The notes under the pieces are model-generated. The model did no database searches. It had not been told where the DNA came from and was given only the letters and a program-made list of their open reading frames with translations. From Rhodothalassiaceae bacterium (GTDB taxonomy: Bacteria; Pseudomonadota; Alphaproteobacteria; Sphingomonadales; Rhodothalassiaceae), in assembly GCA_026004935.1 (NCBI GenBank), contig BPKC01000001.1, forward strand, positions 1,713,491 to 1,777,490: 64,000 bases of DNA, read 5' to 3'. Positions 15,578 to 19,541 of this stretch are shown here, piece after piece. The position numbers were made by a program, and so were the translations under genes. Numbering within the stretch: position 1 is the stretch's first letter; each line of letters begins with the position of its first letter.

Positions 15578-16873
<1,296 letters not shown>

Positions 16874-16952
16874 GAGGCGGTGATGGGACTGCTGCGGCCA
16901 GCCGGTTCGTTCTCGAGGCACGCGATCCGAGCGCATTCAGGGGAGGGGCTGA

Positions 16953-17195
16953 ATGCCGACCGTCCTGAAAGATGGGCCATACCGGATCTTCTTCTATTCG
17001 AACGAGGCGGGCGAGCTGCCGCACGTCCATGTGCAGCGCGATCGCGCACTGGCAAAGTTCTGGCTCGAGCCGGTCGCCGTGGCACGCAGCCACGGGTTTT
17101 CCCCGCGCGAGCTTGGCCGGATCGTGAGGCTCGTGGAAGCGCACCGGGAACGGCTGCTGGAGCGCTGGCATGACTTCTTTGGCAAGGCAACATGA
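16953..17195 (+). CDS. DUF4160 domain protein inside the nuo operon
   Basis: 80 aa and complete for the DUF4160 family. The hallmark core is YRIFFYSNEAGELPHVHV, followed by QRDRALAKFWLEPV and a C-terminal helix with ELGRIVRLVEAHRERLLERW. The ATG follows GGGGAGGGG at good spacing. It begins 79 bases after nuoF, and its end overlaps the next small gene by 26 bases. DUF4160 genes commonly pair with DUF2442 genes, and such pairs have been suspected of toxin-antitoxin-like behaviour. No biochemical function is known to me, and nothing in the sequence ties it to complex I beyond position. Confidence 0.85.
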   Translation: MPTVLKDGPYRIFFYSNEAGELPHVHVQRDRALAKFWLEPVAVARSHGFSPRELGRIVRLVEAHRERLLERWHDFFGKAT

Positions 17196-17496
17196 CGCGC
17201 GGGCGGCGCGCGTGAGCACGACGGAGGACGAACTGGTCGTGGATCTGGTGGACGGGCGGCGTCTTTCCGTCCCGCTCGCCTGGTTTCCGCGGCTGCTTCA
17301 CGCCACGCCGGATCAACGGGCGCGCTATGAGCTTCTGGGCGATGGCGAAGGCATTCACTGGCCCGACGTGGACGAGGATGTCAGTGTCGCGGGTCTGCTG
17401 GAAGGCCTGCCGTCCCTAGAGGCGGGAGCCGCCCGGCCGCGACGGGCGCGAACCGGGTCGACGCGAGCGATGGGAAGCAGGCGATGCCGAAGCTGA
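17170..17496 (+). CDS. DUF2442 domain protein inside the nuo operon
   Basis: 108 aa with the DUF2442 core DGRRLSVPLAWFPRLLHATP, followed by YELLGDGEGIHWPDVDEDVS and VAGLLEGLPS. The last 25 residues (AARPRRARTG onward) look like unselected tail running into nuoG, which it overlaps by 13 bases. ATG 17170 overlaps the DUF4160 gene; an in-frame GTG at 17212 would also keep the domain. With the preceding gene it forms a two-gene cassette in the same direction as nuo and coupled to it by overlap at the 3' end. Function unknown. Confidence 0.82.
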   Translation: MTSLARQHDARAARVSTTEDELVVDLVDGRRLSVPLAWFPRLLHATPDQRARYELLGDGEGIHWPDVDEDVSVAGLLEGLPSLEAGAARPRRARTGSTRAMGSRRCRS

Positions 17497-19541
17497 CGGT
17501 CAATGGCAGGGAAGTGGAGGTGCCCGCGGGCGCCACGGTGCTGCAGGCCTGCGAGGCGGCGGGCGAGGAGATCCCCCGCTTCTGCTATCACGAGCGCCTG
17601 TCGATCGCGGGCAACTGCCGCATGTGCCTCGTCGAGATGGAAAAGAGCCCAAAGCCCATCGCCTCCTGCGCGATGCCGGCGGCCGACGGCATGGTGATCC
17701 GCACCAACACCCCGGCGGTGAAGAAGGCGCGCGAGGGGGTGCTGGAGTTCCTGCTCATCAACCACCCGCTGGACTGCCCGATCTGCGACCAGGGCGGCGA
17801 GTGCGACCTGCAGGACGAGACCATGGGCTACGGCCGCGGGATCTCGCGGTTCGCCGAGAACAAGCGGGCGGTCACCGAGAAATACATCGGCCCGCTCATC
17901 AAGACGGTGATGACCCGCTGCATCCACTGCACGCGCTGCATCCGCTTCCTCGAGGACGTGGCGGGCGTGCCGGAGCTCGGCGCGATCTACCGCGGCGAGA
18001 ACATGCAGATCACGAGCTATCTGGAGACCGCGCTCACCTCCGAGCTGCAGGGCAACGTCATAGACCTGTGTCCCGTCGGCGCGCTGACCTCGGCGCCCTA
18101 TGCCTTCCACGGCCGGCCCTGGGAGCTGAAGAAGGTCGAGACCGTGGACGTGATGGACGCGATGGGCTGCAACATCCGCGTCGATGCGCGCGGGATGGAG
18201 GTCATGCGCGTGCTGCCGCGGCTCAATGAGGAGATCAATGAGGAGTGGATCTCCGACAAGACGCGGTTCGCCTATGACGGGCTCAAATACCGGCGGCTCG
18301 ACCGGCCGTGGGTGCGCAACGGCGGCCGCCTCGGCGAGGCCACCTGGGTGGACGCCTTCCGGGCGGTGGAGCAGGCGCTGGCCGCCGTCAAGCCGGCGGA
18401 GATCGCGGCCGTCGTCGGCGATCTCAACGACATGGAGGGCATGTACGCCTTCCGCGAATGGCTGAAGTCGCTGGATGTCACCCGCATCGAGGGCCGGCAG
18501 GACGGCACGGCGCTCGAGCCGGGCGTGCGGGCGGGCTATCTCTTCAACAGCGGGCTCGCCGGCATCGAGGAGGCCGATGCGGTGCTGCTGATCGGCAGCA
18601 ATCCGCGCAAGGAGGCGGCCGTCTTCAACACCCGGCTGCTGCGCATGGCGCGGCGCGGGGTGCCGATCGCGCGCATCGGCGCGGCCGAGGATCTGACCTA
18701 TCCGGTGACCGAGCTCGGCGCGGATCCGCGGGTGCTGGAGGCGCTGATCGCCGGCGACCATCCCTTCGCCGAGGTGCTCGGGAAGGCGGAGCGTCCGGCG
18801 CTGATCCTGGGCCAGGGCGCGCTCTGCCGGCCGGACGGCGCGGCGATCTGGCATGCGGCGCGCCGGCTGGCGGAGGAGGCCGGCATGGTCCGGCCCGATG
18901 CGGGCTGGAACGGCTTCAACGTTCTGCATACGGCCGCCGCGCGGGTCGGCGCGCTCGACCTCGGGCTTGCGACGGACGGGGGAATCGCGCGCATCTGCGC
19001 GGACGCGGCGGAAGGCCGGGTGAAGCTCGTCTTCCTGCTGGGCGCCGACGAGTTCGATCCGGCACCGCTCAAGGATGCGACCGTCGTCTACATCGGCACC
19101 CATGGCGACCGGGGCGTGACGGTGGCGGACATCATCCTGCCCGCGGCCGCCTGGACCGAAAAGCACGGCGTCTACGTCAACACGGAAGGCCGCGTGCAGT
19201 GGGCGGAGCCGGCGGTGCCGCCGCCGGGCGAGGCGCGCGAGGACTGGAAGATCTTCCGGGCGCTCTCGGAGGTCACCGGCCGGCCGCTGCCCTTCGACAA
19301 CCGCGCGGAGCTGCTGCGTCACCTCGGCGCCGAGGCGCCGCACATCGCGCGCCTCGACGAACGGCCGGCGGAAGCCTGGGGCGCCTTCGGCAGCGACGGC
19401 GCGATCGCGGCGGATCCGCTGGCGAGCGCCGTCCAGCGCTTCCATCTGACCAATCCGATCGCGCGGGCCTCGCGCACCATGGCCGCGTGCGACGAGCTCC
19501 TTTCCGGCAACCAGGAACGGGCGACGGGAACCCATGGTTGA
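17484..19541 (+). CDS. nuoG: NADH-quinone oxidoreductase subunit G
   Basis: 685-aa 75-kDa-type subunit carrying several iron-sulfur clusters. The N-terminal ferredoxin domain has [20 protein letters not shown]. The next cluster motifs are [18 protein letters not shown], including the His ligand, then [10 protein letters not shown] and [15 protein letters not shown]. The rest is a molybdopterin-oxidoreductase-like fold without metal centre ([35 protein letters not shown]). The length matches mitochondrial and alphaproteobacterial forms rather than the longer E. coli NuoG. It overlaps nuoH by 8 bases. Confidence 0.96.

Follow-up and report, generated by a model that had tools for sequence, protein, structure and literature searches.

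Two relatives of the DUF4160-DUF2442 gene pair have been tested as toxin-antitoxin systems. DhiT of Dickeya dadantii is reported to inhibit growth of that species and of E. coli, an effect that DhiA relieves (PMC8198452); as described there, DhiTA of strain 3937 forms a bicistronic operon with its own autoregulated promoter. On Thermus plasmids a module of the same kind is described as stabilising the plasmid (the Persistence Enhancing Module, PMC12724237). Introduction into the host failed for a plasmid without the second ORF of this module and succeeded for one without the first; the second ORF is needed whenever the first is present (PMC12724237). The Thermus module is plasmid-borne behind a replication gene, and the account of it in that paper describes no link to a core operon. 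In the section of PMC12654330 that concerns it, the DUF4160-DUF2442 pair appears among predicted toxin-antitoxin loci only. Two other kinds of system offer parallels. Restriction-modification systems are described as addiction modules with no known mobile element that produce target duplications of ~100 bp on insertion (PMC3874152), and an MNT-HEPN module, i.e. a toxin-antitoxin system in a biosynthetic operon, is reported in the lysine operon of Thermus thermophilus HB8 and is absent in HB27 (PMC2701414); the latter is one case in another toxin family, and no recurrent junctions are described in that account. Target duplication by an addiction module and the placement of a toxin-antitoxin system within an operon are thus precedented, whereas in the open-licence PMC literature we found no paper on DUF4160-DUF2442 pairs recurring at core-gene junctions.

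We analysed a stretch of 64,000 nucleotides from a Rhodothalassiaceae bacterium (hereafter the window), in which a DUF4160-DUF2442 pair lies between nuoF and nuoG, both frames being intact and on the same strand as the two host genes (Table 1). The ORFs, their order, their strand and both overlaps proved to be as given in the initial annotation, which had also called some pairs of these families suspected toxin-antitoxin-like, a wording that the two tested relatives (PMC8198452, PMC12724237) have made outdated. The two proteins score 72.1 bits against PF13711 and 76.1 bits against PF10387, compared with Pfam gathering cut-offs of 23 and 23.9 respectively, and are members of these families. The pair is not a chance arrangement, because the family scores lie far above the cut-offs, the same junction is occupied in a second genome (G004) and the offset between the toxin and antitoxin starts has been kept, at 217 bp in 34 of the 39 pairs measurable with the window proteins. 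As the DUF4160 protein reached only 24.1 bits against the NCBI DhiT model NF048015, far under the equivalog cut-off of 100, it was filed only under the broader DUF4160 family and not as DhiT itself.

Table 1. Features of the nuoF-nuoG junction, in window positions.
Feature	Position	Strand	Basis
nuoF, upstream host gene	15578..16873	+	TIGR01959 668.7 bits, cut-off 558.65
79-bp leader between nuoF and the pair	16874..16952	+	sequence
Shine-Dalgarno-like GGGGAGGGG before the DUF4160 gene	16940-16948	+	sequence
DUF4160 gene, 80 aa, putative toxin; conserved PxHxH and W72	16953..17195	+	PF13711 4.3e-20
DUF4160/DUF2442 gene overlap, 26 bases	17170..17195	+	ORF coordinates
DUF2442 gene, 108 aa, putative antitoxin	17170..17496	+	PF10387 2.6e-21
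Shine-Dalgarno-like GGGAAG of nuoG, within the DUF2442 frame	17472..17477	+	sequence
DUF2442/nuoG overlap, 13 bases	17484..17496	+	ORF coordinates
nuoG, downstream host gene	17484..19541	+	TIGR01973 715 bits, cut-off 470.05

The layout of the window pair is that described for DhiTA (PMC8198452), with genes of the same two Pfam families on one strand, the toxin gene first and the antitoxin gene overlapping it by a short distance. It differs from DhiTA in lying inside nuo, in having an overlap of 26 rather than 3 bases, and in that no sigma-70-like promoter was seen in a consensus scan of positions 16800-17600. The order DUF4160 then DUF2442 also likens it, by description, to the plasmid-stabilising Thermus module (PMC12724237). 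In a Meiothermus pair (L108) the DUF4160 protein is 59% identical to that of the window.

Across 38 aligned DUF4160 sequences H24 and H26 (the HxH motif) and W72 are invariant, which makes an enzymatic toxin at most plausible. The AlphaFold2 model of DUF4160 has a pLDDT of 90.6, but a Foldseek search gave no match at E <1 and we found no convincing relative in the PDB; the best VIA-align Z score was 5.0, to unrelated proteins, which does not show a new fold. The predicted model of DUF2442 matches two solved proteins whose function is not known, 3k8r and 2x8n, both of which its sequence also matches. Beyond residue 80 its pLDDT falls to 45-65, and the last ~28 residues form an extra low-confidence tail whose coding sequence crosses the ribosome-binding region of nuoG.

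We consider that the window pair is probably an addiction-type toxin-antitoxin pair that has inserted in a housekeeping operon, between nuoF and nuoG, and uses the transcription of that operon. Having no evident promoter, it would be transcribed with the nuo genes, and translation of the putative toxin gene would begin from a ribosome-binding site of its own. DUF2442 starts within the toxin gene and nuoG within the antitoxin gene, and because of these overlaps translation is likely to be chained from DUF4160 through DUF2442 to nuoG, the 26-base overlap suggesting translational coupling of the two pair genes. By analogy with the relatives for which neutralisation has been demonstrated, DUF2442 would bind and silence DUF4160. 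Such a pair would persist in two ways: loss of the antitoxin would poison the cells, and a mutation that broke the antitoxin frame would also disturb nuoG.

To see how this junction is arranged in related bacteria, we compared 60 genomes including the window's own, 58 of which encode a NuoG-type iron-sulphur domain. Among the nuo junctions examined, the pair occupied nuoF/nuoG only in the window's own genome (G000) and in G004, which belongs to another genus of the same family. In the sister genome G001 (99/99 support) the two nuo genes are separated by a bare 22-bp gap, and the pair is also absent from G002, G003, G005 and G006 of the same family. The tight spacing of the nuo genes that had been remarked on in the window holds for the relatives, where the median gap is 19 bp across 55 pair-free nuoF/nuoG loci (53 distinct junctions, as two genomes occur twice). 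At eight of these 55 loci (L013, L018, L027, L037, L039, L045, L052 and L062), however, other sequences, 198-1347 bp long, fill the junction. Several of these eight fillers contain ORFs that resemble, by eye, exported proteins of no known function.

Between the window and G004 the identity is 86% for nuoF, 56% for DUF4160 and 67% for DUF2442 (first 85 residues). The corresponding pN/pS values are 0.44 for DUF4160 and 0.36 for DUF2442, and on these ratios both proteins are being kept, i.e. they are under purifying selection. The dS values of the pair (1.29 and 1.44) exceed those of nuoF (0.79) and nuoG (0.67), a difference that hints at separate entries in G000 and G004, although only 80-86 codons were compared and the nuo genes are codon-biased. 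An AU test did not reject one vertical insertion for G000 and G004 (p 0.56), and its result is compatible both with one entry later lost in G001 and with two separate entries; a clean loss of the pair in G001 might speak against strong addiction. Foreign codon usage was considered as a sign of recent arrival and dropped: the GC3 of the pair is 0.79 and 0.72, compared with 0.92-0.93 for nuoF, nuoG and nuoH, but these values fall at quantiles 0.45 and 0.20 among the 204 short genes of the genome and are ordinary.

These comparisons bear on the alternative that the pair is a worn-out passenger, i.e. that it arrived as a toxin-antitoxin module whose toxin is now dead and stays since a deletion that is safe for nuoG is rare. 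A passenger would fit the clean absence in the sister genome, the way in which the DUF2442 tail enters the nuoG leader and the lack of any remaining insertion footprint in the window. It fits poorly with two intact frames, with the retention of the invariant HxH and W residues and with pN/pS values well under 1 for both genes, and we regard it as unlikely.

The only other DUF4160-DUF2442 pair in the window's own genome lies between atpG and atpD. This pair (L072, 7136-7674; G000:C1 ~481135-481673) belongs to a divergent subfamily and sits in the ATP synthase operon; in G052, a member of another family, a pair is also found at atpG/atpD (L120). With the own genome included in each case, the window DUF2442 gene has homologues in 50 of the 396 genomes from the order, and the atp-type DUF4160 in 12 of the 396; in the class, 38 of 385 genomes contain PF13711. 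A DUF4160 homologue is present in 36 of 72,556 plasmid records, some of the plasmids being only 3.4-3.7 kb, and in one of 50,697 phage records.

A role unconnected with toxin-antitoxin activity, e.g. a small housekeeping or repair function that gains from steady expression in these operons, would be in keeping with the fact that only two of the papers found test the family for toxicity, both in distant relatives, with the apparent lack of an own promoter at the window pair and with the failure to find a convincing PDB fold match for DUF4160. However, it accounts poorly for the plasmid copies and tandem arrays, for the patchy distribution (38/385 class genomes) and for the behaviour of the tested relatives, DhiTA and the Thermus module, and we think it quite improbable. 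The arrays include L187 (G654:C67:1-5000), where several DUF4160-DUF2442 pairs lie in tandem and other small ORFs look toxin- or antitoxin-like by eye, and the Acidiphilium cryptum plasmid pACRY06 (8.8 kb; L366), where two tandem pairs follow a RelE/ParE-type toxin and two DUF genes.

On chromosomes, relatives of the window pair occupy many core-gene junctions, the identities of whose flanks were verified with NCBIfam models. Pairs lie between sdhA and sdhB (L006, L188), atpG and atpD (L072, L120), sucB and lpd (L140), leuC and leuD (L147), fabI and aroC (L152), glmM and thiD (L165), and carA and guaA (L114). Others follow thiC (L007), nrdB (L080), ilvB (L112, L113), rpoD (L136) or lolCE (L115), and at L083 the site is that of bioB behind a methylmalonyl-CoA mutase gene, this mutase flank being cut at the locus end and scoring below the full-length cut-off and above the C-terminal domain cut-off. 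Flank names assigned by eye (L128 tesB, L134 cheW and similar) were left out of the evidence. Of the order-level units, 46/68 adjoin a listed core gene (45/67 with one double-counted locus merged), a count that describes clustering and is no test of enrichment, as the core list was drawn from the same pair loci. This list was defined by similarity to the verified flanks and to the phaC and accC flanks (phaC being under its cut-off), and adjoining genes are those on the same strand that end at most 250 bp before, or start at most 500 bp after, the unit. The order-level counts by site are thiC ten, nrdB nine (eight distinct), mcm/bioB/accC ten, fabI/aroC five with a further three at aroC only, glmM/thiD one, and two each for phaC, sdhA/sdhB, atpG/atpD and nuoF/nuoG. 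Core-gene neighbours were found for 6/41 units in the class sample and for 4/9 on GTDB contigs.

Two candidate tests of core-site enrichment were rejected. The finding of core flanks at 0/58 control (HicA/ParE) loci is circular, because the core list came from the pair loci. When part of the own genome was used as the yardstick, the flanks were adjacent in the own genome for 6/117 pair loci (units that include 29 with DUF4160 and an unnamed next ORF and 13 single genes), 1/29 HicA loci and 0/29 ParE loci, and these counts are too weak.

The distribution of sites bears on the two readings put forward in the initial annotation. One of these was that the pair had been recruited to sense or tune complex I. 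Such a role would explain why the same nuoF/nuoG junction is used in two genera, why both pairs of the own genome are in oxidative phosphorylation operons and why the sdhA/sdhB and sucB/lpd pairs elsewhere are at respiratory or TCA-cycle sites. However, there is no conserved association with complex I genes, only 2/68 order-level units being at nuoF/nuoG; the commonest sites (thiC, nrdB, bioB and fabI/aroC), and most of the other named sites, are unrelated to respiration; the pair is absent from G001, G002, G003, G005 and G006; and other sequences too fill nuoF/nuoG gaps (8/55 loci). A complex I regulator is thus very improbable. The other reading, capture of a mobile pair in an essential operon, is supported by the absence of the pair in G001, the many core junctions, the plasmid copies and the footprints seen at relatives (below). 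Absence from all relatives combined with decay had been named as an outcome that would count against these readings, but G004 carries the pair and the pN/pS values are those of maintained genes. Because relatives of the pair are inside many other core-gene operons, we favour a travelling addiction pair over a complex I regulator, and we would interpret the nuo placement as one of the many cases in which the DUF4160-DUF2442 family has entered a core operon. The pair would then have no specific role in complex I, as its family enters many such operons, sometimes leaving a duplicated target-gene end.

We asked whether single sites have been occupied more than once. A tree of 77 pairs was poorly resolved, but AU tests rejected one clade for five fabI/aroC pairs (p 5e-43) and for four nrdB pairs (p 2e-5), the site groups having been set by junction, but after the tree was seen. 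By these tests unrelated sublineages occupy the same junctions, via either separate insertion or exchange at an occupied site. The AU test gave no support for separate insertions of the two sdhA/sdhB pairs, L006 and L188 (p 0.33). Within one genus, two species (G148 and G270) have pairs at different sites, thiC and mcm/bioB respectively.

A strong direct repeat (score of at least 50) flanks the pair in 11/116 pair loci, and nine of these 11 repeats consist of the 3' part of the preceding gene. In L078, L081, L087, L091, L094 and L095 the gene concerned is thiC, with copies of between 59 and ~327 bp; in L112 (107 bp) and L113 (39 bp) it is ilvB, and in L181 (153 bp) a YoeB gene. In G148 the two copies of the thiC end are 91% alike, compared with 92-91% to the nearest congeners, and both copies are congener-like. 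It is in these nine relatives, whose duplicated target-gene ends measure between 39 and ~327 bp, that the likeness to restriction-modification systems lies; those systems consist of other proteins, and the window itself has no repeat. The primary papers on restriction-modification insertion with long target duplication are reportedly Nobusato 2000 and Furuta 2010. Random-unit controls gave flanking repeats in 37/3000 cases in the own genome and at 0/919 positions in nuo loci. At other toxin loci the frequency was 3/57 vs 11/116 for the pairs (p 0.39), so that flanking repeats are not significantly commoner at DUF4160-DUF2442 loci than at those of other toxins. At one ParE control locus (L244, in G406) the toxin gene behind ychF has the footprint seen at DUF4160 pairs, in that a 151-bp duplicate of the ychF 3' end brackets it.

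At the nuo junction no duplicated target end was found in the window, either between the leader and the 5' end of nuoG (p 0.64) or across 700-bp flanks (p 0.29). In G004 the nuoG start is repeated exactly over 14 bp ahead of the pair, with p 0.001 uncorrected for ~90 comparisons and p 0.05 on wider flanks. We did not count the repeats flanking the atp pair of the own genome (p 0.04; the match is long and gappy and lies between coding regions) or that of G052 (p 0.17).

We also compared how closely the pairs and other toxin genes are embedded in operons, using relatives' gene calls that are approximate, as they come from a simple GC-position caller. Both flanks were co-directional and within 100 bp in 26/67 order units, 11/41 class units and 5/9 units on GTDB contigs, compared with 2/29 HicA and 7/29 ParE loci. 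For the class pairs the difference from HicA gave p 0.059 and that from ParE p 1.0, so operon embedding is not commoner for the pairs than for ParE toxins. An overlap of exactly 4 bases between the unit and the gene downstream of it was seen in 15/116 pair loci, 0/29 HicA loci and 2/29 ParE loci.

A more general model, which we put forward tentatively and think rather unlikely, is that DUF4160-DUF2442 pairs are self-sufficient mobile addiction units that have no recombinase and use conserved core genes as homology arms. Such a unit might land at a housekeeping-gene end, make a second copy of it and then lock itself in via the transcription of the operon and the overlap with the next start. The same junctions (fabI/aroC, nrdB, sdhA/sdhB, atpG/atpD and nuoF/nuoG) would be refilled, the first two at least by unrelated sublineages, owing to the conservation and steady expression of the genes that form them. 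Should the wider pattern hold, a small addiction pair with no transposase can spread to, and persist in, the most conserved operons. Sister genomes in which the same junction is empty or filled, and duplicated ends that are intact or decayed, provide natural experiments. For annotation, when small genes lie between those for the subunits of a core complex, toxin-antitoxin pairs should be looked for before the genes are given a role in that complex.

Two further loci were noted. At G777:C1:623535-624196 the 3' end of thiC is followed, a few hundred bp on, by extra partial matches to it, perhaps the remains of an insertion. At L124/L169 (G341:C18) nrdB is followed by a divergent DUF4160 gene and, ~1 kb further on, by a DUF2442 gene of the window subfamily, perhaps as a result of stacked insertions.
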